A stretch of DNA of 64,000 nucleotides from NCBI GenBank assembly GCA_947184155.2, contig CAMXCT020000312.1:184023-248022 (forward strand). The letters run 5' to 3'. This DNA comes from Cladocopium goreaui. Its lineage: Eukaryota > Sar > Dinophyceae > Suessiales > Symbiodiniaceae. Numbering within the stretch: the stretch's first letter is position 1; every line of letters begins with the position of its first letter. Shown here piece after piece: positions 33,289-53,559 of the stretch. The notes beneath the pieces are model-generated. The model saw only the letters and a program-made list of their open reading frames with translations, searched no databases and had not been told where the DNA came from. The translations under genes were made by a program, and so were the position numbers.

Positions 33289-33290
33289 AA

Positions 33291-35199: not shown

Positions 35200-35259
35200 C
35201 GTACGTGCGACGTTCTGGTCCGCGCAAGCGTGGGTACGTGCGACGCTGTGGTCCGCGTA
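35200..35259 (+). repeat. two adjacent GTTNYG-type hairpins before the start codon
   Basis: Cores GTGCGACGTTCTGGTCCGC (from 35,205) and GTGCGACGCTGTGGTCCGC (from 35,238). The second has GCTGTG as loop. Position just upstream of ATG 35,270 could affect translation or transcription. Confidence 0.65.
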
Positions 35260-35269
35260 GGCTAGCGCC

Positions 35270-36181
35270 ATGGAATCGTCGCTGTTCGAAGACCTTGTTT
35301 GTTTCTTGCAGAAAGAAGAGCTTGTGTTGAAGGCTTTGCGCGCCACGGATTTGAAAGCATGCTTGCGGACAGGGACAGGCACCAAAGGATACGAAGCAAA
35401 TGTAGAGCGAGCCAAGTATTATAGAATTTACAATAAGATTGAGAAGCAAGTAACGCCTGACCAAAAAGCTACTCTAATGGATTGGGAACGAAGGCTTTGC
35501 AGTGAGGCGGAGGACATTGATTTCGCACGGTTGCTTGCCATATTTGCAAGCCGTGAAGAGGAGCTGAAGCAAATGAGAAAACCGAGCCTCGAAGCATGCT
35601 TTAACAGCAACCCGAGCAAGACAGACAAGGACTTAAAGTTTTGCCAAAATTTCTTCAAACGCAAAAAAACAAGTATGACATATGAACAGCAAAAGGTTGT
35701 GGATGAATGGGAGGAGAAGATTTGTGGCGATGGTGCGGGGTTATGTCCTGCCATCGATGCAGATTTCATGCGTTTGCTGACTATACTGGAAAACCGCGAA
35801 GATGACTTGCGACAAATCCGAAAAACAAGTCTCGAAGCATGTTTCAACAGCAACCTGAGCAATACAGACAAGGACTTAAAGTTTTGCCGAAATTTCTTCA
35901 AACGCAAAAAAGCAAGTATGACAGATGAACAGCAAAAGGTTGTGGATGAATGGGAGGAGAAGATTTGTGGCGATGGTGCGGGGTTGTGTCCTGCCATCGA
36001 TGCAGATTTCACGCGTTTGCTGACTATACTGGAAAACCGTCAAGATGACTTGCGACAAATGCAAAAAACAAGTCTCGAAGCATGCTTCAACAGCAGCCTG
36101 AGCAATACAGACAAGGACTTGAGTTTTTGCCGAAATTTCTTGAGGCGCAAAAAAACCAGTATGACTTATTTCAAACCTTAG
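35270..36181 (+). CDS. Helitron protein, N-terminal tandem-repeat part (interrupted)
   Basis: Starts at ATG in a strong context (AGCGCCATGG). Encodes 303 residues: a divergent first unit, then 78-residue repeats with the pattern RLLTILENREDDLRQ, KTSLEACF, LKFCRNFFKRKK, DEQQKVVDEWEEKICGDGAG. At DNA level the units repeat every 234 bp (for example 35,598 and 35,832). After SMT the frame enters the inserted element at 36,166 and stops at 36,181. The continuation is at 40,011, in frame if 3,850 bp are removed. Function of the repeats is unknown; basic, Cys-containing and helical, they could bind DNA or mediate oligomers. Each full unit contains one hairpin (35,728 and 35,971) read as GDGAGLCPAID. 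Confidence 0.8.
   Translation: MESSLFEDLVCFLQKEELVLKALRATDLKACLRTGTGTKGYEANVERAKYYRIYNKIEKQVTPDQKATLMDWERRLCSEAEDIDFARLLAIFASREEELKQMRKPSLEACFNSNPSKTDKDLKFCQNFFKRKKTSMTYEQQKVVDEWEEKICGDGAGLCPAIDADFMRLLTILENREDDLRQIRKTSLEACFNSNLSNTDKDLKFCRNFFKRKKASMTDEQQKVVDEWEEKICGDGAGLCPAIDADFTRLLTILENRQDDLRQMQKTSLEACFNSSLSNTDKDLSFCRNFLRRKKTSMTYFKP
35728..35756 (+). repeat. in-frame hairpin inside repeat unit
   Basis: CGATGG...CCATCG outer stem, core GTGCGGGGTTATGTCCTGC, loop GTTATG. Near-identical copies at 35,971-35,999 and 40,064-40,092 follow the protein repeat. Confidence 0.75.
35971..35999 (+). repeat. in-frame hairpin inside repeat unit
   Basis: As at 35,728, with loop GTTGTG instead of GTTATG. Confidence 0.75.
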
Positions 36182-37404
36182 TCTCTTAAATTTGGATTCC
36201 TGTTGATTTCATATGTCCAGGGAAAGAACTATGGAAAGAACTATGTAGCAATCCATGGAAATAAGGGGTGTTTCCACTAAAAATGTTACCCAATGAAGAA
36301 ACCCACCACTTTGAAAGGGAAACACATTGCTCCAAGTTCTTGGACAAAAAACCTTTCAACATCAAGTTAGATGTTACATACAAACTTCGTATTTGAAACT
36401 ATTGGTCCGTAAGTTGGAAAGGAAAACAGTATACAACAATATACAACATCTGTGTAATTCGGGGCCCCATATTTCTTCAAAAAGGAGAACACGAAAGAAT
36501 GCATGTGCGCAAGCTCCAAGTAGAAAAAAGAACTCATAAAAACAATATTACGATGTGACCCTGTATACTGTAAAATTGGTTAACTAGTGCATTGATGAGT
36601 GTATGTATGGCTGTGTGCTCATGTGCATGGATGAACTGCAAATGCAGATCCACAGTTTTTAAGTATTGTTTTCGATGCTGCGAAGACCACGGTAAAACTT
36701 AGGTAAAACATGGTGAAACAAATTTATCAACTGCAAACGGAATCCTACGTATTTGTAGCAGATCAAAGATGTGTTACTGTATTTCTGTCGCTACGTTGTT
36801 GTGCATTGGTCCTTAGCAGTGTTGCAGTAACAGATTACAATCATTATGAATATGTCATTTTATCCAAATACAACGCTTAAACTTTATTGTTGCGTTTTAT
36901 ACAAACGAACCCCGTCGATATACGTCCAAACTTTCAAACATACACGAACAAACAAGAACATATAATTCATCTAAAAACTCAAACAGTCTTATATAAATCA
37001 TAAATACAAAGCAAGTAAAGTAAAGCAAACATCAAAAATATACTTATAAAGTTAAACAGTTGAAGTCAAATCGAGAAGTAAAGTCAAAGTTATGTTACAA
37101 GTTAAAGGTTCTAAGTTTTAGTTATAAGTTGTAAGTTCAAAGTTAAAAGGTTACAAAGTTATAAGTTACACAGTTTTTCGTGTCAAGTCATAACTAGAAG
37201 CTTTAAGTTGTAAATTAACAGTTATAACAATGTGTTTCAATTTTAAAACAGTTCCTAAACCTTATAAACTGATTTATTGAAGTTTGATAGTCAAGAGTTA
37301 TGGACTATGATTTGTATTTTACAAAGTAGCTATAAGCTACAAGTGTGTATATTTGGTTTTATCAAGTTATATACAAGTATAAAAGTAAGTTAACGTATTT
37401 GGGG

Positions 37405-37570
37405 TTTGCAGAACGGTTCGGAACGGTTCCGGAGATTTCCCCAGAACGGTTCGGAACGGTTCCGGATACTTCCAAAACCTCAGAACTATTTAGAACTATT
37501 TAGAACGGTTCCGGAACGGTTCCGGATTCAAAGCCTATAGACCCCAGAACGGTTCGGAACGGTTCCGGAG
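37405..37570. repeat. GAACGGTTC repeat cluster, plus orientation
   Basis: Four to five units of CAGAACGGTTCGGAACGGTT with CCGGA. The same units occur inverted at 38,098-38,160, so the 0.5 kb between could form a large stem-loop. Confidence 0.75.
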
Positions 37571-37709
37571 ACCTCCATATAATAGCATATGTTGACTTGT
37601 ATAATAGCATATTTTGACTATATGATTATTTAACTTTAATACATAGAGTTTGAACAAATAAACACATGCTAGTACCATAAGCAATGATGATTCGACACAA
37701 GCGATATGT

Positions 37710-38243
37710 TCAAAGGGATATTTCAATACAAACTACACATTTGTATGATGTTGTTAGAAAAGATTCCACAGAACAGTTTTCAAGACAGGTAAGATTTTGA
37801 AAGGGGCCACGCCTTCCATGAACAAACAGCTGAGAAACTTCCAGCCTTTTGTAGTCTACATCCAGTTTCACCTTCTCCCTTGTGCTCAGCATGCCTTTGC
37901 ACTGCCTGTTCAAAGACTTAGGCGGAGAAGTTGCCTTCCCTTTGTCGTTTTTCTGAATCCTTTCTCTTGTAGCCTTGGCCCTTGGAGCCACAGGGCGGCT
38001 CTTTGGAAGGTTTTGAAAATGCGAAACAGGAGGAACTGCTCTTGACCGTTTTTTGGGGGGGTTGGAAGCTGTGGAGAAATATCTCCGTGCAAAGTTGAGG
38101 TCTGCAGAACCGTTCCGAACCGTTCTGGAGGTCTGCAGAACCGTTCCGAACCGTTCTGGAGACCTCTGCGCTAAGAAAATTGTCACGTAACTTGGTTCTC
38201 TGTGCCAAGAATCCCGGGGAAGGCACGGACAAGGTTGAGCCAT
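37710..38243 (-). CDS. minus-strand open frame inside the insertion, uncertain
   Basis: 177 codons. The middle part (about residues 60-145) is Lys/Arg/Pro-rich with coding-like composition (NLPKSRPVAPRAKATRERIQ). The ends run through the GAACGG repeats and AT-rich DNA and are probably not coding. It may be a captured host exon. No family recognised. Confidence 0.25.
   Translation of the reverse strand: MAQPCPCLPRDSWHREPSYVTIFLAQRSPERFGTVLQTSRTVRNGSADLNFARRYFSTASNPPKKRSRAVPPVSHFQNLPKSRPVAPRAKATRERIQKNDKGKATSPPKSLNRQCKGMLSTREKVKLDVDYKRLEVSQLFVHGRRGPFQNLTCLENCSVESFLTTSYKCVVCIEISL
38098..38160. repeat. GAACGGTTC repeat cluster, inverted
   Basis: Two units of GCAGAACCGTTCCGAACCGT with TCTGGAG, complementary to the cluster at 37,405-37,570. 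Confidence 0.75.
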
Positions 38244-38253
38244 TCCGGATGCA

Positions 38254-38666
38254 TTAGTCCCAACCTGAAAGATCCTGAAAGTAACCCATCATCACCCTCA
38301 AGAACCCCACCGCTAGCGCTATATATATATATATTCTGAAAAGTATCAAATCATGGTCCAAGACATTATCGGCAGCTATATACAATAGAGTTTGTTTCTT
38401 GTATGGGTAGTAGCACGGTAGTAGCAACAGTCTTGCCAGAGTGACAAAATACCAACAATATAGCCTGGATGTTGCACTGCTACCGCTACTGCATATTTTT
38501 GATCCAGTCCAGAACTGGTGGGGAAAAAGACAGCAATGGGAATGCAGCCAACAACCAGCATTGCCTTTGTTCTTTTTTTGAAAAGGGAAGTCACATAATC
38601 CCAACAGCCTGAACACATTGCAGAAGCCAGCTCAGCGCGCCCAAACACACATGGACTGCCTTCCAA
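38254..38666 (-). pseudogene. possible captured gene fragment, uncertain
   Basis: Minus-strand frames here contain hydrophobic, coding-like stretches (ELASAMCSGCWDYVTSLF; AMLVVGCIPIAVFF). No intact gene or splice model could be built, so it is offered only as a possible fragment. Confidence 0.2.
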
Positions 38667-38879
38667 TAATTGAAATTACATATTGATAGAATTCGACTTC
38701 AGCGCCTGTTCCTTCCACCTAAGTATTTCTCCAATTGCGCTTAAACCGCCTGAATCTTCCCTCAAACAAATGCAGCATCATAAATTAAACCCACTATCTG
38801 TATGCGAGTTGTGTATTGATTCAAGGTTTCAAGTATTTGGGGCAAGGTTGTTAAGTAATCAAAGCTGAATTTAGCCCAG

Positions 38880-39600
38880 TATCACACTAGACAATTAATT
38901 AGCTGCAAATAGAATTCCACTTCGGCGTTTGCTTCTGTCGCCTGAGTATGTCTCCCATCTTGAAGAAAAAACAAACCATATTTTCACCCAAATGCCAGCC
39001 CCAGACTAGAATTTGGAATGCATAATCTACTTAAGCGCACATGGAATTCTACTTAGGCGTCAGTTTGTGACGCCTAAGCAAAATTCTATTTGCGCCTAAG
39101 TAGATTATGGATTATGTTTTCCAACAGCCCCAGACTAGATTTCTATTTGCGCATAAGTAGATTATGACTGTGAATTATGTCTTCCAACAGCCCCAGACTA
39201 GAATTTGGAAGACATGGTCTAATAAGGCGCAAAAGTAATAGAATTCTACTTAGGCGTCAGTTCGTGACGCCTAAGCAGAATTCTTTTTGCGCCAAAGTGG
39301 ATTATGAATTATGTTTTCCAACAGCCCCAGACTAGAATTCTATTTGCGCCTAAGTAGATTATGACTATGAATTATGTCTTCCAACAGCCCCAGACTAGAA
39401 TTTGGAAGACATGGTCTAATAAGGCGCAAATAGTAATAGAATTCTACTTAGGCGTCAGTAGATTATGAATTTTGTCTTCCAACAGCCCCAGACTAGAATT
39501 TGGAATGCAAAATCTATCTGGCGCAAATAGAATTCTACTTGGGCGTCAGTTCGTGACGCCTAAGTAGAATTTTATTTGCACCTAAGATTACCTAAGTAGA
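38880..39600. repeat. ~170-bp repeats with 19-bp hairpins (GTTCG loop)
   Basis: About four imperfect units sharing CAACAGCCCCAGACTAGAAT. Three contain a long stem: GAATTCTACTTAGGCGTCA pairs with TGACGCCTAAGCAGAATTC around a short GTTCG/GTTTG loop (about 39,046-39,085, 39,241-39,281, 39,530-39,571). One unit lost its right arm. Confidence 0.85.
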
Positions 39601-40010
39601 TTTAGTCTTCAAAAGAAAGACCGAAACATAAGTTCAGCCCAATCTCACAATCAGAATTTTATATCTGTAGACTGTGGATCAGATAGGTATAAAGTATCCA
39701 TGGCAAGTTTTTGTTATTAGCAAAACTAAACTGAATTCATCACCGGTCCACAATACAAATTCAATTTAGGTCAAGTACTTCACGACTTTGAGCGCAAACC
39801 CAGATGGATGAATCTGGATGTGTCCTCGCTGTGTGCATTGTTTTGTTTCTTTACTTCTTCAAAAGCTTGCTAATTTTCCCTTGACATGGTTTCTAACATC
39901 ACCTTTTATAAGATATCCTTATTGCCCTGGTTTCTTCCATAGTCCCTTCCATAGTTCCTTCCATGGTCCACAAGGCCCACAGGTTAAGAGGCTAAAGTTT
40001 GAAATAAAGT

Positions 40011-42998
40011 ATGACAGATGAGCAGCAAAAGGTTGTGGATGAATGGGAGGAGATCATTTGTGCCGATGGTGCGGGGTTATGTCCTGCCATCGAGGCAGAT
40101 TTCGCACGTTTGCTTACTATACTGGAAAATCGTGAAGATGACTTGCGACAAATGCAAAAAACAAGTCTCGAAGCATGTTTCGGGACACGTGTCAGCAATG
40201 CAGACAATGATCTTGGTTTTGGACGGAACTTTTTCCGTCGGCGGAAAGATATGTTGACGGATGAGCAGCGCAAGGTTCTTGAGGACTGGTCTTCCAAGAT
40301 TTGTTCCCATGAGCATGTTGATGATGGTTTTCGGCGCTTCCTTGCAACTTTGCATGCTCGAGCACAGGAGCTGTCTGCCTTGCGCAAATGTGACCTGAAA
40401 GACATCTTTTCGTCCCATATGTGCAAAAAAGATTCGGAGTTGAAATTTTGTCAAAACTTTTGGCGGCGCAGCGCAGAAAAATTGAGTCCCGAGCAAAAGG
40501 AACAAGTGGAGGATTTGAAAGCAGGAATTCTTTGGCCTCATGCGCAAGACGATCGTGCGGCGTTGCGGCCCGCGGTTGTCAGGATGTTGGACAAATTTGA
40601 AAACATACTTGCACGCAGAGAGGCAGAATTTCGCGGCTTTGGGGCTGCAAGTGTTTATGGTCTGTTTACCGGGCACGCGAAGAAATCTGATTCTGAGGTT
40701 AGATTTTGTTACGATTTTGTCAGCCGTGTGTTTCCCAAACTGGAAGATTCGGAGCAACAGCGACTTCGAATCAAACTGGATGACCTGTTGTTAAAAAGCT
40801 GCTCTGTGCCCGTGAAAAGTAGTTACCAGGCCAAACTACACGATGCAGAGACTGTCTTGGGCGACGCTCTTCCACGCCCAAGACTGCCGAAAAGTTTGCG
40901 TCAGCTGTTTGGCAACAGTATGGATGCAGAGGCAAGGATCATGCCGTTTTTGCACCGTGTTCATGAGGTGGATGAGTTCATGGTTTCCTTAAAATTTCAA
41001 GACTGTGACTATTGCCACGAAGGATGGTTTGGCAGTGATAGAAAACGGTCAGACTTGCCCGGTGGTTTTGAAACCGAAACCTATAAGAAGACCAATTTCT
41101 TGCGTGCGCCTGAGAACCAGTGGCTAGACCCAGAGCGACCGATCTGTCAAAATTGTCTGCGAGAAGCTAAAGGACGCGCTGCGGAGGGCTATCCCAAGGA
41201 GCCTTTCCGCTTGACAGGTGCTAACTTCGCAGATCCTGGGCCAACGTTGCCAGAAACCGACGCTTTGAGCTTCTTTGAAGAGGAGATCTTGTCGCCAATC
41301 CAGCATATTGTCCGCATCTTCACGTTGCACGCAACAGGACAATGTGAGCTCCGCGGTCACGTGGGTAACCTGTTCCAAAATGGCCCACAGTATGTTCGTG
41401 ACATCCCTGCAGCCGTGGGTGACATGAAGATGCTTCTGATACGGCGGTGTCCCAAGGATCCAAACCGCAAGCAACGAGTGCCTTTCCTTGTGTCAAGGCG
41501 ACGTTTGCAACGTGCTCTTGATCGCCTTTGTCGCACGTTGGAGGAGGATGGTTCTTTGGCTCTCCAGCCCGGAGCACTGACACCTGGCGGCTACGTCGAC
41601 TTGGTGAAGCGGGGAAACCTCGACCAGTATGCAGACACTGAGGAAGGCGAGGAACCCCATGGTCTGCAAGTTCATGTCGTCGAGCAAAGACCATGGGAGC
41701 GCGTGGAGCGCAAGCTGTTCGCTTTGTGGATGTCGTGCTCGCTGGAGTTGCAGATGGCAGCCCAGGTACGTCTTTTGCATGAGCCCGAAGATGTGCAGGA
41801 TCCGGCGGAGAGGGTGGATGTTCTGTGGAAGAATTTGCGTGCTGCTATGGATGCCAAAGCCCCGGATGTCGTGGGCGGCCCTTCAGACTTGATGTTTACA
41901 ACGCTGGCTCAATACTTGTCTCTGCAGTTTTCGGATAAAAATGTGCAAGACGTAGAAAACATTTTGCACGATGAACTGACGGCAGTGCAGGAGTTAGCTT
42001 CCTGGGAAGAGCCTTTGGTGTCGGATGGCTTGTGGTCGCCTGAAGATGTAGCTGGCCAGCAGACTGAAGCAGAATTGAAGGATGACTTGTGGGAGACGAT
42101 CTGTAAAGCCAACGAAAGCGCCAGCAACAAATCTACAATTCGTCGTTTTGGAGCAGCACGGGTGCAAGGAGTGCCTATTCTGGATCCCCCAACCGTAGCA
42201 TCCAGAAACCAACTAGTCAGGGAAGATCAACCTTATTACATTGTTGCTGGTTTTGTGAAATTGTTTCCACTTGGACAAGGAGATTTTTGGGCGCACTTGC
42301 AGCAGCACCAAGAGGAAAACCAACAGCCGTTGTCCTTCTGGGAGTGGCTGAAGCATTTGCTTTTGCGTTCGGATGGTCGTTTTCAAGCCCACCCACGGTT
42401 CTATTTTTTTGCTCTGAACACCGCTTTGCGCAACAAGGCTTTGCGTGCCCGGGGATATTTTATGAAGCGCCAGCAGGGGGCCAGCAGCAACGTTGCGTAC
42501 ACTACAGAGGAACTTTTCAACATGGGTAAAGCTCAGTTCACCAAGATTGTGTCAGCTTTCGAACACTCCATGGCCGGTTCAGCGCAGGAGAAGTTGCGAG
42601 AACGCAGTGACTTAGAGGCCATGGTGGAGCAGATTGAACAAGAGACGTTGCAAGATCAGGCTCACGCTTTGTTGCAAGCTTGGCGCGAAGCGGAATCTGC
42701 TGGAAACATGCTTGAGCAGCAAGGTTTTGCTACTTCTGCTGCAGAAGTGCGAGCCGTGTGCTCCGTTGCAAAAGCTGCGGTGGAGAAGGTCTTGTCGCCA
42801 GAAACCATTGAAGCCCAAGCTAAGCCTTCTGTCTCGTGTGTCGTTGTGGACCGCGAGATGGATGAAGGGCCCCAGCCTGATGTCGCGCGCGTCGTTGCGG
42901 ACCACGCGGCAGAACCGATGCAGCAGGAAATTGAAGTCAGCCCAGCTGCGGAGGAAGAAAGTGGCTTTGCGTGCTCCAGGGGGCCGCTCAGGACCTAA
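40011..42998 (+). CDS. Helitron protein, middle part (tandem repeats, CxxC region, Rep N-terminus)
   Basis: 995 codons. The ATG lies inside the target duplication, so it is a by-product of the insertion, though it could act as a start. Residues 1-30 complete the broken 78-residue repeat, and more divergent units follow to about 265. Two CxxC pairs (Cys 332/335 and 379/382) and the following SPIQHIVRIFTL region resemble the DUF6570-type segment upstream of Helitron Rep. Residues about 745-810 (VKLFPLGQGDFW, SDGRFQAHPRFYFFALN) match the start of the Helitron N-terminal domain. The frame ends at TAA 42,996 while Rep continues in the next frame. The C-terminal 60 residues are acidic and linker-like. 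It contains hairpins at 40,064, 40,550, 42,832 and 42,883. Confidence 0.85.
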   Translation: MTDEQQKVVDEWEEIICADGAGLCPAIEADFARLLTILENREDDLRQMQKTSLEACFGTRVSNADNDLGFGRNFFRRRKDMLTDEQRKVLEDWSSKICSHEHVDDGFRRFLATLHARAQELSALRKCDLKDIFSSHMCKKDSELKFCQNFWRRSAEKLSPEQKEQVEDLKAGILWPHAQDDRAALRPAVVRMLDKFENILARREAEFRGFGAASVYGLFTGHAKKSDSEVRFCYDFVSRVFPKLEDSEQQRLRIKLDDLLLKSCSVPVKSSYQAKLHDAETVLGDALPRPRLPKSLRQLFGNSMDAEARIMPFLHRVHEVDEFMVSLKFQDCDYCHEGWFGSDRKRSDLPGGFETETYKKTNFLRAPENQWLDPERPICQNCLREAKGRAAEGYPKEPFRLTGANFADPGPTLPETDALSFFEEEILSPIQHIVRIFTLHATGQCELRGHVGNLFQNGPQYVRDIPAAVGDMKMLLIRRCPKDPNRKQRVPFLVSRRRLQRALDRLCRTLEEDGSLALQPGALTPGGYVDLVKRGNLDQYADTEEGEEPHGLQVHVVEQRPWERVERKLFALWMSCSLELQMAAQVRLLHEPEDVQDPAERVDVLWKNLRAAMDAKAPDVVGGPSDLMFTTLAQYLSLQFSDKNVQDVENILHDELTAVQELASWEEPLVSDGLWSPEDVAGQQTEAELKDDLWETICKANESASNKSTIRRFGAARVQGVPILDPPTVASRNQLVREDQPYYIVAGFVKLFPLGQGDFWAHLQQHQEENQQPLSFWEWLKHLLLRSDGRFQAHPRFYFFALNTALRNKALRARGYFMKRQQGASSNVAYTTEELFNMGKAQFTKIVSAFEHSMAGSAQEKLRERSDLEAMVEQIEQETLQDQAHALLQAWREAESAGNMLEQQGFATSAAEVRAVCSVAKAAVEKVLSPETIEAQAKPSVSCVVVDREMDEGPQPDVARVVADHAAEPMQQEIEVSPAAEEESGFACSRGPLRT
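40550..40578 (+). repeat. in-frame hairpin (GAxLxPA frame)
   Basis: Core GTGCGGCGTTGCGGCCCGC, outer stem CGATC/GGTTG with two wobbles. Read as DDRAALRPAVV. Confidence 0.75.
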
Positions 42999-45900
42999 AA
43001 CTATTCAAGATTTGCTGTTGGAGGTGCAACAGCGTAGCTTGTGTGTGCAGGGTGGCGGTGAAATCCCATGTCACTTTAGCACTTTGACAACCGCCATTTA
43101 CCATTGGGATGATTTAGCCACATGCTTAGAGCGGTATGAAGCAGCTGTCCTGCAGCAGCGGAACAACAGAGCCGATCCCTTGGAACCAGCAGAACGGCAG
43201 TTGTCGTCTGAACGCCGGCGAGTCCTGCGTTACCCCGGGGTGGTCGCCTGGTTCACTGCGTACAAAATGGAGCTCTTTTACAAGCATGTGTTGAGATATG
43301 AGGATGGACAGGGTGTGTTCGAATGGGGCGCAGGTGGCATTATGCATTTGCATTCGATCAATTTTGGCTCTTGCATGCCACGTGTCGATCCAACCGCAGC
43401 AGGCATGCAGCAACCGGACGAGAAGAGTGCCGAGATAGCGGCGCAGTTTGCAGAGATGCATGAAGAGTACTTGACGGATTGGAGCCTCAGCAAAGCAGAG
43501 AAGTGGACCTTTCATGAGGTGGACAATTGCGCTGCCAGATCTGCTCGTGTAGGGTCACCTTTGCACACAGACTCAGAATCTGATGGCTCCGAGGATATGG
43601 AGGATGCGTTGGACGAAAAGTGCGTTCGCCGTAAGGCCCCTGGTGCTGGTTTAGATCTTGGTGCAGCTGCAGATGTGTTTGGGCAGCATGCTGTGGCAGA
43701 GGATGTCGATTTTCAACGTGTTTACCCCACAGCAACTACAATGGTGTATGTGCTGTCACAAGGTGCTCGTGTGACACAGGCTTTGACAGAAACAGATCGC
43801 GGTTTATTGCGTACTTTGGATGTTTCTCTCCAAGATCCAACTTGGCACCCCTGTCGAATTTCTGTTGCGCAAAAAGCTTTGCTAATGACCAACAACTGCA
43901 GGTTGGTTCGCCGCGCTCGTCGCAAGTGGTATCGCAGGCTGACGGAAAAATGCAATAGGCATGATCGGCACGGTGGTGCAGGTTTTGAAATTCCGCCTGT
44001 TCATGTTGAAGCGAATGTAGACACACAGCCCGAGGAAGAAGAAGGCGCCGAGCCAGAGGCAGAGGTTGTCACGGCGCGGATGCAGCAGTGTCCACTGCGT
44101 GTTGGAACACTGAACATGCACTTGCTGTCGCCGTGTACTTGGCTTGAGGATCTCTTGGACAAGTGCGATGTTCTGTTCTTGCAGGAAGTCACCGCTGAGT
44201 GCTTGGAAGATCTTTGCTTGTTGGGACAACAAAACGGTTACGAAGCGGTGTCGCCGCTGTTGCGTGGCCAAACGCCGGAGGAAGGGTTTGATGTGTGTGT
44301 TCTGTTGAAGCTTGACGTTTTACAGTCTCGCAGAGTCACGATTTCGCCTTTACCATCTCCTTCCAACAGAAAGCTTTTACAGGTGTATGTCACTCTCCGT
44401 GACAATGGGTCAATGCTGTTGGTTGCCACAGCGCATTTCACGTCGGGTTCGAGCATGGTAGAGCAAAGGGCTTCGGAACTTCAATCTGTTTTGGCTACTC
44501 TAGAAGCATTAAGCAACGTAGACGCTTGTGTTTTCGCTGGTGACTTGAACATGCGTCTGGAAGAAGCCTTGCCACCAGGTGTGTCCCCAGGCTGGCGAGA
44601 TGCATGGGAAGAAGATGGAAGCCCGGAAACCCGGTGTGGCACCTGGTGTCCTGAAAGCATGCAAGCGGATGATGCACGCGTGCGTGCGTGGCGTTTCGAT
44701 CGCATTTTGACTTTGTGTCAGTTTGGGCACATGGACAAGCCTGGTCCTACGCCGTTACGGGCTGGGACAGAGGCTACCGAACGGGTTGCCTTCGCCACTG
44801 TGGAACTGCAGCCGGGGTCGTTCGATGTTTCATTTCAGTCGCAGGACTTGGATCATGCATTTGTGCAAGCGAAGTTCGAGTTCATGCCTGTGGTTGCCGG
44901 TGAACGCGAACTTGTAACAGAACGAGTAAAAATCTTGAGACCCGGACTGGGTTCAAAGATTGCGCGCAGGCCTCTGGAGCGAGAAAGCTGCGCGCAAAAA
45001 CAACATTGCAAAAGTTTTTGCGGCAAGGACTACGAGAAGCCTCGCATGTTACCAGGAATGGGTGCCATTTTGGAAGATAGCCGGCGAAAGAGTTTGTTCC
45101 GGTTGTATACGCGTCGGAATTGCCACCACTTGAACACGCACGACCCCTTGAAAGCTATGGGTTTGGTGGCTAACGTAGATGATCAAGTGGTACTGACCGT
45201 GCAAGCCGCTGTGAATTACTTGACTAAGTATATGGGCAAAATCGGCGGAGGCCATAGTGCGCAAAGTCGCATCAGCGGATTGATAGATGACATCGTATGT
45301 CGCATGGGTGATCGTGAGACGATGACTGTTGCATCGCTTTTGTCAAAGCTTTTTATTCACTCGGCCGTTCCGGATGAAATTTGTTCCTTGGAGGCATGGC
45401 ATATTTTGATGGATTTGCCCCGTGTCCTGTCGTCCAGGTATGTGACGTCTTTGAATGTCAAGGACGATTCGAGCGCCTTGAAAGATTTGCCCAGCATTGA
45501 ACTAGCAACTGCGGAAGAGAACGTGGTGAAGAAGAGCAAGGTGGCTGTCTACTTGGATCGATTCAACATGAAGGCGCAAGTCGATATCTCCGCAGCATCT
45601 CTTGAGAACATGTCCCTTTTTCAGTTCATCAGTCGCATAGATCGGCGTGGGAAGTCGTTGCACTTGCGAACCAAAAGCACGATTGTGAAGGAGAAACCGT
45701 TCTTGCGCTTGGATGCTCGGCGTAAGGAGGCGGGCGCCATGGCCCGTCTGTGCTTGCGTCTGCATCGCCCTTTTCGAACTGAAGCTGCGGATCCGATGCA
45801 CCTCGAAGATGGGACGGCTGTTGCAGAGTTGCATGCATTTGTGCGAAGCCCCACCTGCCCGGTTTGGTTGAAAAAAAGATATGCCAAGCACAATCGAGTC

Positions 45901-48900
45901 AAGGCCGCCAAGCAAGCGGCGGAAGCACTGTCTTCGGTGAACATCACAGCAGCAACGGAGAACGCCAATGTCTCGCACGGGGCGGTGTTGCGACCCGCCG
46001 TGCCAGTTTCCCAAGCCGCAATGGGTCCAGCTGTGCCAGAGGACGGTGCGTCCCAGTCGCTGTCTGCAGGCGATCCCGGGGACGGTGCGGTGTTTCGACC
46101 CGCCGTACCCGCTTCGCAGACAGGTATGCGTCCAGTAGTGTCACAAGCTAGTGCACCCGATGCCATCCGTGTCCCCCTCGTACCAGCACCAGGTAGCAGC
46201 GCGCGTGTCATAAATTTAAGTGCCGGAAACACGGAGGATCCTGAACCTGATGATGTGTGCATGGACAATGTAGAGTCAAGCGACAAGTTTTTGGCCGACA
46301 CTGTTGCAAACCGGCAAGTGGTTGCAAACCGACATGGTTTACTGTGGGGTGGTACACCGGGAGATAGCCGTCACAGTGTGGTTGACGCTATTCGGTTGCA
46401 TAGGCCGCCTTTGAAATTGGTGTGTGTCAAACAATACTTGGAAGCACTGACAGGTACCAAGCCGCAAGGTTCCAAAAAAGTACAATTTTTGGTGGAGCGT
46501 TTTGTGTTTTTAATGTTGTTCATTGACTTGCAGTCGTACGAAAAAAGAGGTGCTGGAGTTTTCAAGCAGTGTTTGACGAAGAAAGCGTTGCAGAACTTGG
46601 CTACCTATTTTTTCCAGTCGCAGGGCTCGGCCGTGACTGCTAAACAAAAGAAAAATGTAGTTATGAAACCGTATGCTGAGTTGTGGGAATACATTAAATC
46701 AGAAACCTTGAAGCAGTGCGGTCTGGCAGTGTCGGCTTCACCTGCGCACCGCGTCGGTTTCGATGGACAAGCGGCGAACACCCAGGCAGAGCTCAAGAGC
46801 GGCGCCTGGCGGCAGAGTGTATTTTGTCTGAATCCACAATCTCTGGAACATGAAGAATGGGAGGACGCCGCCGAGAGAGAAGCAAAGAGAGTGCGGTATG
46901 TACAGGCAGCTATGCACGAACAGAGCATGGGTCGGCCGGGAAAGCGCTTGCATGAAATGTCGTTGCCTTTGGATGCAGATGCGCTGATGTGCGCCGACTT
47001 TGATACCAGGTCCGAATGGGATGCTTTGAACCCTTACTTGGAAAAGGTGACTTCACAATGGATATGGCCGGAGCTGGCTGTTAAGATTCTCCCAGAAACC
47101 AAAACCTACGTTCTCAAGCCGTCGCAAGGGGGCTTGGCGCACACTGAAGCAGAGCAGATGACTAGTGGACATGGCGGTTCCTGGCAAACGAACGGAGAAC
47201 CTTCGCTTGACCCCACGCAGAATTCGTTTGTCGAACACATGTGTGCCTGGAGAGATGCTTACAGAGCCGAGAGAGAAGTCTTCGAGGCGAACTTGCCGTT
47301 GCCACGCAATTTGCATGGGTCCATCGCCTTAGGGGAACCAGTGCTATTTGCTTTGCTTATTTGTGTTTGTGTGCTATTACTGGGAACGGCAGGAACTGGG
47401 AAAACTACGACATTACAAGCTGCAAATCGCCTCTTGGAAGCATGCGGCTTCCAAGGTCGCATTGTTCGCTGTGCATACACTGGTGTTGCCGCAAGCAACA
47501 TGGGCAGCGGAGGTCGAACGCTCGTGTCTCTGTTCCGTCTGAGCAAGCGCAAATTCGGAGGTGGCTTGGAACCTTTGTCCTCAGAAGATCTTCGAGCAAT
47601 GGATGAGGAACTCAAAGGCATGTGCTTGCTTGAAATTGACGAAGTGTCTATGACAGAAAAGCTAATCCTTGCGCACGTGCATCAACGCCTACAGCAGTGG
47701 CGGCTCGAGTTATATCACGATCAACACTGCCGCGGTGGTGCGGAGTTGTGTCCCGCCACGGCCTGCGTTTGCGGTGCTAGGCTGCCGTTTGGCGGCGTGA
47801 AAGTTGTTCTTGCAGGTGATTTTGGCCAGTTGCCGCCAGTGGCAGTACCGCCAGAACGAACTCTGCTATGCACCAAGCCGAAAACTGAAGGGCAAGATCG
47901 GCAAGATGTCAACCTTGGACTGCGGTTGTTTCAGCAGATTCGTGTTGTTTTTCGGCTGCGCAGGATTCACCGGCAGGTCGGTCAATCATTATACAAAGAG
48001 TCTCTTTTGCGCCTGCGCGACGCAGCGCATACGAAGGAGGATGTTCAACTGTGGAAGTCCCACGATTTGACTGACTTGGCGGCTTGCACCCTCACGGTTG
48101 AAGAGCGCCTCTTTTTCGAGCAGAAATGCGTGCACTTGTTCTGCGAAAATCGCCGCGCCGGACAGTTCAACGGCCGACGCTTGGGCGAGGATGTCATGGA
48201 CAAAGACAGCTCGACGATTCTTCGGATTTGGTCCGTAGACAGCACTCCTGGGGTGGAGCGTTACACCAGCGAGAACTACGGAGGTTTGAAGCGCGTCTTG
48301 CACTTAGCTGCAGGCGCCCCAGTGATGTTGACCATGAACTTGCGCACTGTCTGGAACTTGGTCAACGGCGCTCGTGGAAATGTGGTCGCAGTCGTTCCCG
48401 TTGAAGAACCACCAGTAGCGGCTGGCAGCGGTGCGGTTGGCACACCTCTTGTTGCACAAGTGAATGAAGTGGGCGGTGTGTCCGCTGGCACAGCTGAATA
48501 TGTGATCGTGGACTTTCCTGGATACGTGGGCCCGGTGATGGTGGCTGGTCATCCAACTTGGGTGTGTGTTCCTAAGCTCAGCAACAGACACGAAAAGTTT
48601 CGAGGTTTGGCTCACACGCAGTTTCCTTTGGTGTTGTGCTATGGCATGACGGTGCACAAAAGCCAGGGCTTGACACTGGCCTCCGGCTGTGTTTTCAATA
48701 TGGAACATGAACCCACCTGGTCACCTTTCAAGCAGATGTGTGGCTTGGCCTTTGTGGGTTATTCGCGTGTGACTGACTTTGCAAAGATGGCCTTCAAATA
48801 CGTGCCTGATTACTGGTCTTTTCAAAGCATGGCCGATACAGACATGTTTCGATGGCGAGCCGCATTGGAACAACGTTTGGACGAGCTCCACGACAAAACG

Positions 48901-49392
48901 GCGGAAACCATCTTCCATGGTCAAGCTTCTGTCAAGGATGATGTGCAACGGCATCGTGCGTGGTCGGAAAAGTGCACAGGCAGGCAGATGAGCGACGATG
49001 AGCTCGCGGACTTGATGCATATGTTGTCCCTGCGCGGGGTGTTACCGCAGCCAGGCTACACTGACAAGCCGGTCCGTCGCTTGGCCAGTAAAGCAGGGGG
49101 CGGCAGGACGCAGCGCAAGACCATGCGCGGCGGAAGCGCAAAGGCGCGCGCAGAGGAGGGGGTGGCCGATGGGGCAGGTGAGCCTGAGTGTGATGAAGGT
49201 GGAGTTTCGGCCGACGAAGAGGCGCACTGGGCTGCACTTAAAGAAGAAGACGAGAGGACAAATGCGTTGATGCGCGAGTATTACGAGGATCAGGAGAGAG
49301 AGGCGAGAGCCGAGTTTCACAGAGAGATAAACGAACGCTACAATGAATTGGCTGCTCAATTTTACGATGATTTTGGGTACTATGATGACTAG
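42634..49392 (+). CDS. Helitron Rep-helicase with embedded TDP2-like nuclease
   Basis: Frame open from a TTG at 42,634; residues before about 42,960 look like a shadow of the upstream frame, so this is the continuation of one protein by a +1 shift. Residue numbers count from 42,634. Rep HUH motif: His238-Leu-His240 in GGIMHLHSINF. EEP domain about 487-750: TLN494, QE518, TAH near 603, GD637-L-N639, RFDRI, LD740-H741. Rep Y2 motif: Tyr862 and Tyr866 in NYLTKYMGK. Then a linker, and Pif1 helicase: Walker A GTAGTGKT 1584-1591, LEIDEVSM 1666-1673, GDFGQLPPV about 1727, VHKSQG and VGYSRV. An acidic tail ends EEDERTNALM...YYDD. All catalytic residues appear present. Rep nicks and joins DNA through 5'-phosphotyrosyl links, and Pif1 unwinds 5'-3'. 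The EEP resembles TDP2, which hydrolyses such links, more than the AP-type endonuclease of Helentrons. Confidence 0.88.
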   Translation: MNKRRCKIRLTLCCKLGAKRNLLETCLSSKVLLLLLQKCEPCAPLQKLRWRRSCRQKPLKPKLSLLSRVSLWTARWMKGPSLMSRASLRTTRQNRCSRKLKSAQLRRKKVALRAPGGRSGPKTIQDLLLEVQQRSLCVQGGGEIPCHFSTLTTAIYHWDDLATCLERYEAAVLQQRNNRADPLEPAERQLSSERRRVLRYPGVVAWFTAYKMELFYKHVLRYEDGQGVFEWGAGGIMHLHSINFGSCMPRVDPTAAGMQQPDEKSAEIAAQFAEMHEEYLTDWSLSKAEKWTFHEVDNCAARSARVGSPLHTDSESDGSEDMEDALDEKCVRRKAPGAGLDLGAAADVFGQHAVAEDVDFQRVYPTATTMVYVLSQGARVTQALTETDRGLLRTLDVSLQDPTWHPCRISVAQKALLMTNNCRLVRRARRKWYRRLTEKCNRHDRHGGAGFEIPPVHVEANVDTQPEEEEGAEPEAEVVTARMQQCPLRVGTLNMHLLSPCTWLEDLLDKCDVLFLQEVTAECLEDLCLLGQQNGYEAVSPLLRGQTPEEGFDVCVLLKLDVLQSRRVTISPLPSPSNRKLLQVYVTLRDNGSMLLVATAHFTSGSSMVEQRASELQSVLATLEALSNVDACVFAGDLNMRLEEALPPGVSPGWRDAWEEDGSPETRCGTWCPESMQADDARVRAWRFDRILTLCQFGHMDKPGPTPLRAGTEATERVAFATVELQPGSFDVSFQSQDLDHAFVQAKFEFMPVVAGERELVTERVKILRPGLGSKIARRPLERESCAQKQHCKSFCGKDYEKPRMLPGMGAILEDSRRKSLFRLYTRRNCHHLNTHDPLKAMGLVANVDDQVVLTVQAAVNYLTKYMGKIGGGHSAQSRISGLIDDIVCRMGDRETMTVASLLSKLFIHSAVPDEICSLEAWHILMDLPRVLSSRYVTSLNVKDDSSALKDLPSIELATAEENVVKKSKVAVYLDRFNMKAQVDISAASLENMSLFQFISRIDRRGKSLHLRTKSTIVKEKPFLRLDARRKEAGAMARLCLRLHRPFRTEAADPMHLEDGTAVAELHAFVRSPTCPVWLKKRYAKHNRVKAAKQAAEALSSVNITAATENANVSHGAVLRPAVPVSQAAMGPAVPEDGASQSLSAGDPGDGAVFRPAVPASQTGMRPVVSQASAPDAIRVPLVPAPGSSARVINLSAGNTEDPEPDDVCMDNVESSDKFLADTVANRQVVANRHGLLWGGTPGDSRHSVVDAIRLHRPPLKLVCVKQYLEALTGTKPQGSKKVQFLVERFVFLMLFIDLQSYEKRGAGVFKQCLTKKALQNLATYFFQSQGSAVTAKQKKNVVMKPYAELWEYIKSETLKQCGLAVSASPAHRVGFDGQAANTQAELKSGAWRQSVFCLNPQSLEHEEWEDAAEREAKRVRYVQAAMHEQSMGRPGKRLHEMSLPLDADALMCADFDTRSEWDALNPYLEKVTSQWIWPELAVKILPETKTYVLKPSQGGLAHTEAEQMTSGHGGSWQTNGEPSLDPTQNSFVEHMCAWRDAYRAEREVFEANLPLPRNLHGSIALGEPVLFALLICVCVLLLGTAGTGKTTTLQAANRLLEACGFQGRIVRCAYTGVAASNMGSGGRTLVSLFRLSKRKFGGGLEPLSSEDLRAMDEELKGMCLLEIDEVSMTEKLILAHVHQRLQQWRLELYHDQHCRGGAELCPATACVCGARLPFGGVKVVLAGDFGQLPPVAVPPERTLLCTKPKTEGQDRQDVNLGLRLFQQIRVVFRLRRIHRQVGQSLYKESLLRLRDAAHTKEDVQLWKSHDLTDLAACTLTVEERLFFEQKCVHLFCENRRAGQFNGRRLGEDVMDKDSSTILRIWSVDSTPGVERYTSENYGGLKRVLHLAAGAPVMLTMNLRTVWNLVNGARGNVVAVVPVEEPPVAAGSGAVGTPLVAQVNEVGGVSAGTAEYVIVDFPGYVGPVMVAGHPTWVCVPKLSNRHEKFRGLAHTQFPLVLCYGMTVHKSQGLTLASGCVFNMEHEPTWSPFKQMCGLAFVGYSRVTDFAKMAFKYVPDYWSFQSMADTDMFRWRAALEQRLDELHDKTAETIFHGQASVKDDVQRHRAWSEKCTGRQMSDDELADLMHMLSLRGVLPQPGYTDKPVRRLASKAGGGRTQRKTMRGGSAKARAEEGVADGAGEPECDEGGVSADEEAHWAALKEEDERTNALMREYYEDQEREARAEFHREINERYNELAAQFYDDFGYYDD
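42832..42857 (+). repeat. in-ORF hairpin, different reading frame
   Basis: TCTC/GAGA outer stem, core GTGTGTCGTTGTGGACCGC. Read here as SCVVVDRE, not in the GAxLxPA frame used elsewhere, which shows that conservation is at nucleotide level. Confidence 0.75.
42883..42909 (+). repeat. in-ORF hairpin, different reading frame
   Basis: Outer TCGC/GCGG, core GCGCGTCGTTGCGGACCAC. Read as ARVVADHA. It lies about 90 bp before the frame switch. Confidence 0.7.
44744..44768 (+). repeat. in-frame hairpin within the TDP2-like coding region
   Basis: GTCCTA(C)GCC / GGCTGGGAC around loop GTTACG. The stem is completely paired apart from the family's single bulge, yet its sequence is unlike the other copies. 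Read as GPTPLRAGT. Confidence 0.65.
45975..46003 (+). repeat. in-frame hairpin in the Rep-helicase linker
   Basis: GCACG/CGTGC outer stem, core GGGCGGTGTTGCGACCCGC. Read as HGAVLRPAVP. Confidence 0.75.
46080..46108 (+). repeat. in-frame hairpin in the Rep-helicase linker
   Basis: Core GTGCGGTGTTTCGACCCGC, outer arms GGACG/CGTAC. Read as DGAVFRPAVP. About 105 bp after the previous copy; the two linker hairpins form a local duplicate. Confidence 0.75.
47733..47759 (+). repeat. in-frame hairpin within the helicase
   Basis: Core GTGCGGAGTTGTGTCCCGC, inner A-T pair. Read as GGAELCPATA, an insertion-like loop between the DEAD-like motif and GDFGQLPPV. Confidence 0.72.
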
Positions 49393-49444
49393 CTTGAGTC
49401 GGAAAAACTTGTAGCCAAAAGAGTTGGCAATCTTTTGCCATGCA

Positions 49445-49471
49445 GCAGGTACGTAGTTGTGTGCTGCCTGC
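49445..49471 (+). repeat. hairpin just after the stop codon, satellite prototype
   Basis: GCAGGTA(C)GTA / TGCTGCCTGC around loop GTTGTG, ten pairs. This is the closest single copy to the satellite core (GGTATGCAGTTACGTGCTGC), located 53 bp after the stop. Confidence 0.75.
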
Positions 49472-49607
49472 GTAGCAACTTGTTCTCTTTGATACATGCT
49501 ATGAGCAGAAACCCCATCAGTGCGTAGCCTGTTCATTGTGGATTCCCAGTGCTCTTGTTCAGCCACCGCTTTTGAGCCATGCAATCGCCTTCCGATTGCT
49601 GCCGCAC

Positions 49608-49628
49608 GGTACGCTGTTATGAGCTACT
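49608..49628 (+). repeat. GTTNYG-loop hairpin in the 3' flank
   Basis: GGTA(C)GCT / AGCTACT around loop GTTATG. Same bulge position. Confidence 0.65.
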
Positions 49629-50536
49629 TGTGCTTCGTCGACGTAGTTCGTGGGTAGACTCCATAGCTAGCTGGGCCGAGGCTGGACGTGCTTGTGGTGC
49701 TTTGAAAATATTACTATATTCGTAGAAGAAGACAGTTTACAAGAAAAAACCAACAACGATGGAGAGAGAAAGAAATAGAGAGACAGAAAATAAGGGGATC
49801 AACAGATAGAATGAAGGTTGAAAACATACAAAAGAGACCAAAATGTAACTATAGTAATGCTGGACAAGGTATTGTAGGCAAATGTATTTTCAAGGTGCCA
49901 CACCACGCAGTAGTCTCAACACGGCTGAACAGTTCACCTGGAGAATAGGCACGAACACCGAAACGAGATTCAACACTAAGAGGCAGACGGATATAAACAA
50001 ATAGATAGACAGACAGAGAGAGAAGCAGAGGTCATGTATAAGACAAACCAACACACTGCAGATCGTGCGAACCAGAGACGAAAAGAAGACGGACAGACTG
50101 CAAGACAAAATCACCCAGAGAACGAGAGACAGTTGTGTATATTCTCCAGGTGTGATAATGTTCAGCACGAGTAAAGGCTGCAAGTTGCCACCGCGCAGTG
50201 TGGTGAGCTGTGTGCTCATTCTGCGTGGTTGCGAGATAGTATTGTCAGTACAAAGACAAAAAGAGCGAGGTGAGTCGGAAGTGTGAAGTTGGGTCGTGGG
50301 GTTGTTTCTAATGGATGATTGTTTCAGGAGTGTGTGAGTGGTGGTGAAAATACGAGAAAGGTTCGAAGGTTGAAGGAGGACCAGTCGCGGAGTTGATGTG
50401 ATGTGGCATGAGAGGTTGATTGATGTTGCAGGTTGATGCAATTCCATGATCAAGCTTGCAGCGATATGGGTAACGAAGAACGTAGTCTGTTTTACATGGG
50501 TGACATGAAGATATGATTTGTGGAACATGAAACACG

Positions 50537-52580
50537 CACGCGGGTATGCAGTTACGTGCTGCCTGCGTCGTCTTCCTGCCATGTTTGTGGTTTCTCGGCA
50601 TGTTTAGTGCGTGTTGGTGACATGTCAAGACATGTTTTATATGTCATGTTTACTCAAGACCTAGACTTGCGTTGGCATGTTTATGACGGCTTGCTCGTGC
50701 AAGCTTGTCTTACCGGCATGTTGGCCTCACGCGGGTATGCAGTTACGTGCTGCCTGCGTCGTCTTCCTGCCATGTTTGTGGTTTCTCGGCATGTTTAGTG
50801 CGTGTTGGTGACATGTCAAGACATGTTTTATATGTCATGTTTACTCAAGACCTAGACTCAAAGGAATTTTCATCTGCCCTCGGGGACATGCCTCCAATAT
50901 ACCTCTATATAGTCGGTGGAATGGTCGGATGGCAAGACTTGGATGTTTGGGATTGGTTTATTCACAGTTGTAGGTAGAGTCAGTTAAGGATAACTGTGGG
51001 GTAAGTTAGTTTCACTCGAGAAAAATCAGGTTTTTCTGATTTACCCCCTATGTTAGGAAATCTTAACACACCAGAGCGTGACAAACATTGATTCATGTTT
51101 ATTGTAAAACCCAACAAGTGTTGATTTGAATTCCATCTGCATTTGAAACAAATAGGGTAATACTAAATCAATATAGTCTCGAAATAACCCCAATATAATC
51201 CTTAAGTAAGAAAATATAGGAGGTATGTTCCTGAGGGAAGATGCTTCAAGCTTTGATAGACTTGCGTTGGCATGTTTATGACGGCTTGCTCGTGCAAGCT
51301 TGTCTTACCGGCATGTTGGCCTCACGCGGGTATGCAGTTACGTGCTGCCTGCGTCGTCTTCCTGCCATGTTTGTGGTTTCTCGGCATGTTTAGTGCGTGT
51401 TGGTAACATGTCAAGACATGTTTTATATGTCATGTTTACTCAAGACCTAGACTTGCGTTGGCATGTTTATGACGGCTTGCTCGTGCAAGCTTGTCTTACC
51501 GGCATGTTGGCCTCACGCGGGTATGCAGTTACGTGCTGCCTGCGTCGTCTTCCTGCCATGTTTGTGGTTTCTCGGCATGTTTAGTGCGTGTTGGTGACAT
51601 GTCAAGACATGTTTTATATGTCATGTTTACTCAAGACCTAGACGCAGACTTGCGTTGGCATGTTTATGACGGCTTGCTCGTGCAAGCTTGTCTTACCGGC
51701 ATGTTGGCCTCACGCGGGTATGCAGTTACGTGCTGCCTGCGTCGTCTTCCTGCCATGTTTGTGGTTTCTCGGCATGTTTAGTGCGTGTTGGTAACATGTC
51801 AAGACATGTTTTATATGTCATGTTTACTCAAGACCTAGACTTGCGTTGGCATGTTTATGACGGCTTGCTCGTGCAAGCTTGTCTTACCGGCATGTTGGCC
51901 TCACGCGGGTATGCAGTTACGTGCTGCCTGCGTCGTCTTCCTGCCATGTTTGTGGTTTCTCGGCATGTTTAGTGCGTGTTGGTGACATGTCAAGACATGT
52001 TTTATATGTCATGTTTACTCAAGACCTAGACTCAAAGGAATTTTCATCTGCCCTCGGGGACATGCCTCCAATATACCTCTATATAGTCGGTGGAATGGTC
52101 GGATGGCAAGACTTGGATGTTTGGGATTGGTTTATTCACAGTTGTAGGTAGAGTCAGTTAAGGATAACTGTGGGGTAAGTTGGTTTCACTCGAGAAAAAT
52201 CAGGTTTTTCTGACTTACCCCCTATGTTAGGAAATCTTAACACACCAGAGCGTGACAAACATTGATTCATGTTTATTGTAAAACCCAACAAGTGTTGATT
52301 TGAATTCCATCTGCATTTGAAACAAATAGGGTAATACTAAATCAATATAGTCTCGAAATAACCCCAATATAATCCTTAAATAAGAAAATATAGGAGGTAT
52401 GTTCCTGAGGGAAGATGCTTCAAGCTTTGATAGACTTGGGTTGGCATGTTTATGACGGCTTGCTCGTGCAAGCTTGTCCTACCGGCATGTTGGCCTCACG
52501 CGGGTATGCAGTTACGTGCTGCCTGCGTCGTCTTCCTTCCATGTTTGTGGTTTCTCGGCATGTTTAGTGCGTGTACCAAA
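50537..52580 (+). repeat. 191-bp satellite with one hairpin per unit; higher-order 1,174 bp
   Basis: The CACGCGGGTATGCAGTTACG core starts at 50,537, 50,728, 51,323, 51,514, 51,711, 51,902 and 52,497, so spacing is 191 (or 197) and 595 bp. The 595-bp spacing carries a 404-bp insert (TCAAAGGAATTTTCATCTGC onward) present twice. The core folds to a 12-pair stem, loop GTTACG and a bulged T. Each unit also has ACATGTCAAGACATGT, a 7-bp inverted repeat. Open frames of 90-96 codons repeat with the array and are not genes. Confidence 0.92.
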
Positions 52581-52597
52581 TTACATAGTCTTATCCC

Positions 52598-52680
52598 CGT
52601 ACAACAACAACAACAACAAACAACAACAAGAACAACAACAAGAACAAGAACAACAACAACAACAACAACAACAACAGTTA
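52598..52680. repeat. (CAA)n microsatellite
   Basis: CAACAACAA with occasional GAA; followed by a (TA)n tract to 52,722. Confidence 0.95.
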
Positions 52681-52730
52681 AGAAATACATATGTATATAA
52701 TATGTATATATACATATATATTCTTCGGAT

Positions 52731-52850
52731 ATGGCATATCTTCTGGCACTCTATCTGGCATATCTCATGGCATTTTATCTGGCATATCTTCTGGCATTCT
52801 ATCTGACATTCTATCTGGCATCTCTTCTGGCATTCTATCTGGCCGTGGTT
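52731..52850. repeat. TATCTTCTGGCATTC minisatellite
   Basis: Five to six units of 20-22 bp; inverse of the array at the window start. Confidence 0.85.
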
Positions 52851-53140
52851 GAGGTCCGGCAGGGAACACTGAGGTTGGATGGTCGTGGTTGAGGTCCGGC
52901 AGGGAACACTGGGCGTGGATGATCGTGGTTGAGGTCCGGCAGGGAACACTGGGCGTGGATGATCGTGGTTGAGGTCCGGCAGGGAACACTGGGCGTGGAT
53001 GATCGTGGTTGAGGTCCGGCAGAGAACACTGGGCGTGGATGATCGTGGTTGAGGTCCGGCAGCGAACACTGGGCGTGGATGATCGTGGTTGAGGTCCGGC
53101 AGGAGGTGGGCGTGGATGATCGTGGTTGAGGTCCGGCAGG
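52843..53140. repeat. 40-bp minisatellite
   Basis: Seven to eight units containing GTGGTTGAGGTCCGGCAGGG and AACACTGGGCGTGGATGATC, the last two shortened, then a (GAGGAGAA)n run to about 53,180. Confidence 0.92.
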
Positions 53141-53180
53141 AGGAGAAGAGGAGAGGAGAAGAGGAGGAGAAGAGGAGGAG

Positions 53181-53559
53181 GCAACTGACCTAAAATCTAA
53201 CAACCCTCACCTGGCAGGTGGGGAATCAAAATCTGTCTAAATGCCACGCAGGCCACGTTTTCTCTTGCCTATTTTGCTGCGATGACACATTTTTATGCGG
53301 GCAAACCCTATTCGAAACGATGTTACTTTTTACATAATTCTCGGTCAAATTTGGATGAAAACACAAGCGAAATTGACCTTTTTCAAAAAACACAACTTAA
53401 TTTCCACATCATTTTGTGCATGCTGAAAAAAAAGCTTAATGCCTCCCACACGAAATGACTTTTCAGTGCAAGTGATGAGAATGAAATTGTGCAAAATGAT
53501 GCAAAACGCACGTACGGAAAACGGCGCAACGGGATGTTTGAGGACCCTGGCCTGTTTTA
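53181..53559. other. spacer, no gene seen
   Basis: Unique sequence between two repeat fields. A short minus-strand open frame has no coding-like features. Confidence 0.4.

Follow-up and report, generated by a model that had tools for sequence, protein, structure and literature searches.

A TDP2-like domain between the HUH and Y2 motifs in the transposase of a giant Helitron-type element from the dinoflagellate Cladocopium goreaui

The DNA stretch analysed here (the window) comprises 64,000 nucleotides of Cladocopium goreaui (assembly GCA_947184155.2, contig CAMXCT020000312.1, positions 184,023 to 248,022). It contains a giant element of the Helitron superfamily, 27,001 bp in length (30828..57828), whose transposase combines a Rep domain and a helicase and carries a TDP2-like EEP domain between its HUH and Y2 motifs. 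This anatomy is conserved in the relatives found, the inserted domain has the fold and the active site of the TDP2 type, and it is under purifying selection. The complete reading, in which this Rep-helicase includes a predicted 5'-tyrosyl-DNA phosphodiesterase working in cis, is given an even chance of being correct.

The transposase is encoded by two open reading frames (ORFs) in different frames; like the element itself, they and all their features are on the forward strand. ORF2 (P0001, 2258 aa; 42616..49392) contains, in this order, the HUH motif (H244-L-H246, 43345..43353, in the stretch FEWGAGGIMHLHS), the EEP domain (aa 487-760, 44074..44895), the Y2 motif (Y868/Y872 of YLTKY, 45217..45231, in the stretch YLTKYMGK) and the N-terminal part of a PIF1 helicase (aa 1587-1802, 47374..48021; PF05970, E 2.6e-12). 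Both Rep motifs were located by reading ORF2, and the EEP by Pfam, profile and structure comparisons. HUH and Y2 are separated by 624 residues, in agreement with the value of about 620 given in a preliminary description of this DNA, the residue numbers of which were 6 too low. The EEP fills about 272 of these 624 residues and other segments also lengthen the Rep. The presence of EEP motifs between HUH and Y2, claimed in the same description, was borne out by the reading of ORF2 (TLNMH, FLQEV, TAHFTSG, FAGDLNMR, DAWEEDG, GTWCPES, RFDRI and LDH) and by a Pfam match to PF03372 (EEP; E 3.8e-8), the bounds of which are aa 510-699, whereas aa 487-760 are alignment bounds.

HUH and Y2 had also been assigned to a single Rep domain. 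Both are indeed in ORF2, but the Rep begins upstream, in the other frame. ORF1 (40008..42998) encodes 81-aa repeats, DUF6570 (PF20209) and the first half of Helitron_like_N (PF14214, profile positions 1-110; E 7.2e-6, under the curated cut-off, which the match of the relative P0003 exceeds). The Rep N part in ORF2 (43051..43395) starts at GGEIPCHF and continues up to the HUH motif, and PF14214 positions 112-189 matched this stretch weakly, in four of six rows (E 0.008 in the first). Homology of ORF2 to P0003 starts at about 42976, and this alignment placed the frame break of the window copy at about 42976-42980. In P0003 itself (3465 aa) the equivalent of ORF1 plus ORF2 is uninterrupted in a single frame. 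HUH, Y2 and the helicase P-loop are also in one frame in the genome copies C1758 (3409 aa), C558 (3317 aa) and C2475 (3499 aa), which join in one protein the HUH Rep with two tyrosines and the PIF1-type helicase by which Helitrons are recognised. The structure prediction proposed for Rep plus EEP was successful only in part: AlphaFold gave a confident EEP, but the Rep parts were mostly below 60 in predicted local distance difference test (pLDDT). PDB sequence searches with the two Rep halves returned 0 rows and 1 chance row. Since no confident Rep was obtained, it is the order along the sequence that suggests a clean insertion of the EEP in the Rep fold.

Protein searches gave 41 relatives with aa 120-960 of ORF2 as query and, with aa 775-1005, 27 proteins from 612 candidates, of which 1 was new; the latter search reaches close relatives only. 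The same domain order, sought in other Helitrons, was found throughout: in every one of the 17 proteins with both HUH and Y2 (the window protein and 16 relatives, some of which may derive from the same genome as the window), the two motifs flank the EEP. In these proteins the HUH-Y2 spacing is 569-835 residues and identity goes down to about 35%. Nine of these proteins had contributed to the EEP profile and therefore match by construction; the remaining 8, P0030 and P0062 among them, had not. The other relatives miss one or both Rep motifs, most of them truncated within the EEP or next to it. No relative with both Rep motifs but devoid of the EEP was detected within reach of the two protein searches, and viral contigs scanned with the alignment of Rep and EEP gave 104 pattern matches and 0 relatives. 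Because the EEP is between HUH and Y2 in 17/17 proteins, the accidental joining of two Rep copies, which would leave the HUH of one and the Y2 of the other at both sides of the domain through rearrangement or misassembly, is excluded. The frame break and the nested insert of the window copy would agree with such an artefact, but the order is the same in the 16 relatives and in 14/14 genome copies, and the patterns used detect a single HUH and a single Y2 in every one of the 17 proteins, so that we attribute practically no probability to it.

Several side observations were made on these proteins. P0030 and P0062, which are by segment 31-49% identical to the window protein, have a Josephin (ubiquitin protease) domain fused C-terminal to the helicase. 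In comparison with P0029, the window copy has an extra stretch of 10 residues (FALLICVCVL) at 47349-47370, just before the Walker A motif, which is missing from six other copies among the matches listed. In turn, many copies of P0029 may hold a frame break separating HUH and EEP from Y2 and helicase, either by decay or as a split gene.

The EEP had been likened to TDP2 rather than to AP endonucleases, and the searches, together with the active-site residues described below, upheld this view. In a profile search of solved structures TDP2 occupied the 13 best rows (best E 1.1e-25), and it also headed the fold searches with the EEP, both in Foldseek and in the Z-scored structure comparison. With a profile of TDP2 and TDP2-like proteins, 13 Helitron EEPs scored 71-114 bits, YbhP 45 and XthA 21. 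In the structural alignment, the domain was 22-28% identical to the rows of TDP2. An EEP query of the protein set gave 18 matches, 13 of which resemble pieces of the same Helitrons while 5 (P0056 and P0058-P0061) do not. The phylogeny proposed together with the profile search was less informative than the latter: in a tree of 22 EEP rows, in which no Helentron or LINE endonuclease was included, branches were long and deep forks weak (58/93).

An AP- or retrotransposon-type EEP was considered and rejected, no such chain being found among the EEP search matches at E≤10. As a control, E. coli XthA yielded 55 rows at E≤0.01, of the ExoIII/APE type and Crc, and 0 of TDP2. APE1 and the L1 endonuclease were missing from the best 50 structure rows listed, which does not exclude a likeness of fold. 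None of 10 EEPs had PF14529 listed at E≤1, taking into account that HMMER filters drop most weak matches, and NCBIfam analysis of 10 EEPs gave no match for that of the window and weak rows for at most 3 others. The sequence and fold searches run therefore support a domain that is TDP2-like and probably neither AP- nor retrotransposon-type. Fold alone does not single out TDP2, because a Bacteroides EEP protein (Z 26.0) ties with C. elegans TDP2 (Z 26.1). The families ranking behind TDP2 raise the question of whether the substrate of the EEP might be RNA, nucleotides or a different phosphoester, as for a nocturnin/CCR4-like enzyme. Nocturnin came second among the families of the profile search and headed the non-TDP2 rows in Foldseek, and by Z the neighbours of TDP2 are bacterial EEP proteins whose function differs or is unknown. 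However, with a profile-search E-value 21 orders of magnitude weaker than that of TDP2 and about 4 Z units less than the best TDP2 row, such an activity seems improbable.

In human TDP2, each of the changes E152Q, D262N, W297A, R206A and D350N abolishes activity (PMC10407441, in the portion available), and W297 and F315 are described as part of the TDP2 shelf in the accessible part of PMC4925160. The human fragment was numbered from E152, after which R206, D262 and W297 fall on the expected letters. The residues matching E152, R206, H226, D262, N264, W297 and F315 are kept in 13/13 Helitron EEPs, R266 in 6/13 and S229 in 3/13. D350 is present in the 21 EEP rows selected for coverage (21/21) and absent from P0045, a cut gene model outside those rows. 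Thus, all five positions required for activity in the human enzyme are conserved. FAGDxNxR and RFDRI, which had been proposed as TDP2 signatures, both occur in the window EEP, but the R of the former is not family-wide, being replaced by H, Y or A in more distant members. Seven core catalytic residues are complete in 19/21 rows, the exceptions being P0028, a truncated protein without the N-terminal Asn, and P0010, with Asn in place of Asp.

These residues also bear on the possibility that the EEP is a DNA nicking endonuclease acting on the target or the donor, acquired by convergent capture and with a role like that proposed for the C-terminal AP-type endonuclease of Helentrons. The equivalent of R206 does not discriminate, because it also occurs in XthA and YbhP. 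In contrast, the shelf residues W297 and F315, invariant in the 13 Helitron EEPs, are not kept in either of these proteins, and the TDP2-type profile scores given above separate both from the Helitron EEPs. Among five standalone TDP2-like rows, W297 is kept only in P0059. A nicking endonuclease is consequently regarded as unlikely, but deserving some weight.

The genome (1,165,616,438 bases in 6202 contigs) was searched with aa 409-875, which include the linker, the EEP and Y2 and exclude HUH, and at least 55 matches were obtained. At least 15 copies, the window included, cover this query fully at 98-100% identity without stops, and the matches beyond these 15 are partial or more diverged. Selection and residue counts were made on 14 of the 15 near-identical copies, C3249 being left out. 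Ratios of non-synonymous to synonymous change (pN/pS) and the helicase test were based on 12, after leaving out C1552 and C5903, with which EEP counts are unchanged (C6005, C1552 and C5903 are cut by locus ends). The HUH and Y2 residues are intact in 14/14 copies. In the EEP and in the Rep-to-helicase stretch the pN/pS was 0.24, in the helicase and in the linker preceding the EEP 0.17, and in the Rep part following the EEP 0.11. The short Rep N part, with few changes, had 0.49, and its selection test, over 14 copies, was not significant by itself (p 0.27). In the EEP, 19 synonymous and 17 non-synonymous changes were counted over 14 copies, the expected non-synonymous share being 0.76 (p 1.4e-4, treating changes as independent). 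The EEP is therefore under purifying selection across near-identical copies. This result is relevant to the explanation that the EEP is a captured domain which is now structural or idle. Its divergence, faster than that of the Rep parts, and the altered active sites of some copies would be expected from such a domain. However, besides the selection observed, the seven core residues are complete in nearly all family rows and the eight EEP positions checked are intact in 12/14 genome copies, and an idle domain has little probability.

As regards function, the 5'-phosphotyrosine linkage is retained by HUH nucleases and the transposition of Helraiser depends on its nuclease and helicase activities, according to the available part of PMC5876387, while TDP2 hydrolyses 5'-phosphotyrosyl bonds (PMC10407441, likewise in part). 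The Helitron EEP is predicted to be a Mg2+-dependent 5'-tyrosyl-DNA phosphodiesterase that would work in cis. When Rep nicks, the transposon strand would be bound by its 5' end to one tyrosine, and the second tyrosine could capture the flank's 5' end. Adducts that strand transfer leaves unresolved, such as flank ends and abortive nicks, might then be hydrolysed by the adjoining EEP, yielding ligatable 5'-phosphates and free transposase with no need of the host TDP2. The place of insertion of the EEP suggests that its active site and that of Rep are close, and judging from the predicted protein we infer that the EEP releases the transposase's own 5'-phosphotyrosyl adducts. The broadest form of this proposal, a self-deconjugating HUH enzyme in which 5'-phosphotyrosyl DNA is made and unmade by two sites of one polypeptide, so that this Helitron lineage is freed from host adduct repair, is held tentatively, at somewhat under an even chance.

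Some data weigh against a phosphodiesterase acting in cis. The Rep parts of the AlphaFold model are of low confidence, so the proximity of the two active sites lacks support from it. A TDP2 in cis could likewise remove the very intermediate on which strand transfer depends, and Helraiser, to our knowledge, works without such a domain. The fold tie with the Bacteroides protein is a further point, as is the fact that a query containing the EEP, which favours EEP-bearing proteins, supplied 15 of the 16 relatives. In P0013 the EEP is 39% identical and the Rep 76%, indicating faster EEP divergence. The Asn replacing Asp in the EEP of P0010 and the single EEP active-site changes of C777 and C6123 (2/14 copies) are also unfavourable, and in the largest protein cluster, P0029 (205 members), the sequence is out of frame where it begins, at the tail of the EEP.

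The same predicted chemistry could instead be directed to the host, the EEP removing adducts of topoisomerase II from the element as it replicates, or outcompeting a host TDP2 that would strip the transposase from its DNA. Animal Helentrons carry other host-facing enzymes, e.g. deubiquitinases, as reported in the part of PMC9741609 available, and the Josephin domain of P0030 and P0062 is in line with them. However, the EEP is inside the Rep, not terminal, in 17/17 proteins, and this location suggests a role tied to Rep chemistry; a host-directed function is considered rather unlikely. If the EEP is active, the transposase would also be a natural tandem in which one enzyme couples covalently to DNA and the other uncouples it. 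With the TDP2-like enzyme inside the Rep itself, the way in which HUH transposases deal with covalent 5' adducts on the flanks, and the bearing of host TDP2 on it, becomes a matter for a point-mutant test.

Comparison with known systems indicated that Helentrons are similar in joining a Rep-PIF1 helicase transposase to an EEP-superfamily domain and in having inverse repeats near their ends and a 3' palindrome (PMC4067079, as far as available). Their endonuclease is, in the same text, AP-type, CR1-like and C-terminal, with a PF14529 match in the mite case, whereas the domain described here is TDP2-like and located between HUH and Y2. Pfam listed no second EEP after the helicase in ORF2, and the window element has no AP-type PF14529 endonuclease at the C-terminus. 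Both identity and position thus differ from the Helentron arrangement portrayed there, as had been anticipated. Helitron2, according to this source, has inverse repeats and hairpins at both ends, which the window element shares, and no endonuclease domain, whereas an EEP is present here. The terminal inverted repeats that mark Helitron2 are asymmetric and accompanied by palindromes at both ends. The element resembles canonical Helitrons and Helraiser in its HUH Rep with two tyrosines, PIF1-type helicase, 5'-TC and lack of any target duplication seen. A 3' hairpin is also common to them, and we know of no EEP in canonical Helitrons or Helraiser. Canonical Helitrons (Helitron1) end in CTRR and insert between A and T, and the window element does not have such an end. 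The 3' end of Helraiser is CTAG (PMC5876387, portion available), and that of the window element is CTATGTTA. TDP2 itself shares with the Helitron EEP the fold, the catalytic residues, the shelf Trp and Phe and the TW and RFDRI motifs, but it is a free cellular repair enzyme and not a domain within a transposase. In the literature searched, with incomplete coverage and partial texts (including PMC4067079, PMC6213432, PMC5876387 and PMC9741609), no TDP2-like domain in a Helitron was found.

The limits of the element, 5'-TCAAAGGAAGTTTAG... to ...GGGTCTATGTTA-3', are those of homology between copies, which begins at TCAAAGG and ends after CTATGTTA, the flanks being unrelated. The 5' end was visible in five copies, and the 3' end in five as well. 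The 5' terminus (30828..30856) starts with TC, preceded by A, G, A, A and T in the five copies, and contains an 8-bp hairpin (GGAAGTTT/AAACTTCC). The 3' terminus (57791..57828) contains GGGAAACTTCC, the inverse of the 5' GGAAGTTT, has a small hairpin rich in GC at some 10 nt from its end, and finishes in CTATGTTA in 5/5 copies, none with CTRR. No target-site duplication was present in the three copies with both flanks read (the window, C558 and C2475). Because of its 5'-TC, hairpins and lack of target duplication, the element is of the Helitron type, without a CTRR end, and its inverse repeats recall those of Helitron2 and Helentrons as described in the part of PMC4067079 available.

The N-terminal 81-aa tandem repeats of the transposase gene (243-nt units), supported also by tblastn of P0003, occupy 35261..36181; such repeats were also noted at 35519-36247 and from 40002 onward. 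Their number may vary, since the relative P0003 has several. The array is interrupted by a nested element of 3,842 bp (36166..40007), which has terminal inverted repeats of 24 bp, differing at 2 positions, and an 8-bp direct repeat, AGTATGAC. It has no ORF of at least 250 aa, and it is absent at this site from six other copies, among the matches listed. No tRNA was found in the window, and Pfam analysis of 8 other window ORFs gave two weak, chance-like rows. Large tandem arrays are located towards both ends of the Helitron (30877-31615, 31625-34070, 51257-52032 and 55748-57194), and alignments suggest that their copy numbers differ between element copies. Finally, a telomere-like repeat, CCCTAAATGAAA, forms an internal stretch at 202-450 of the window.
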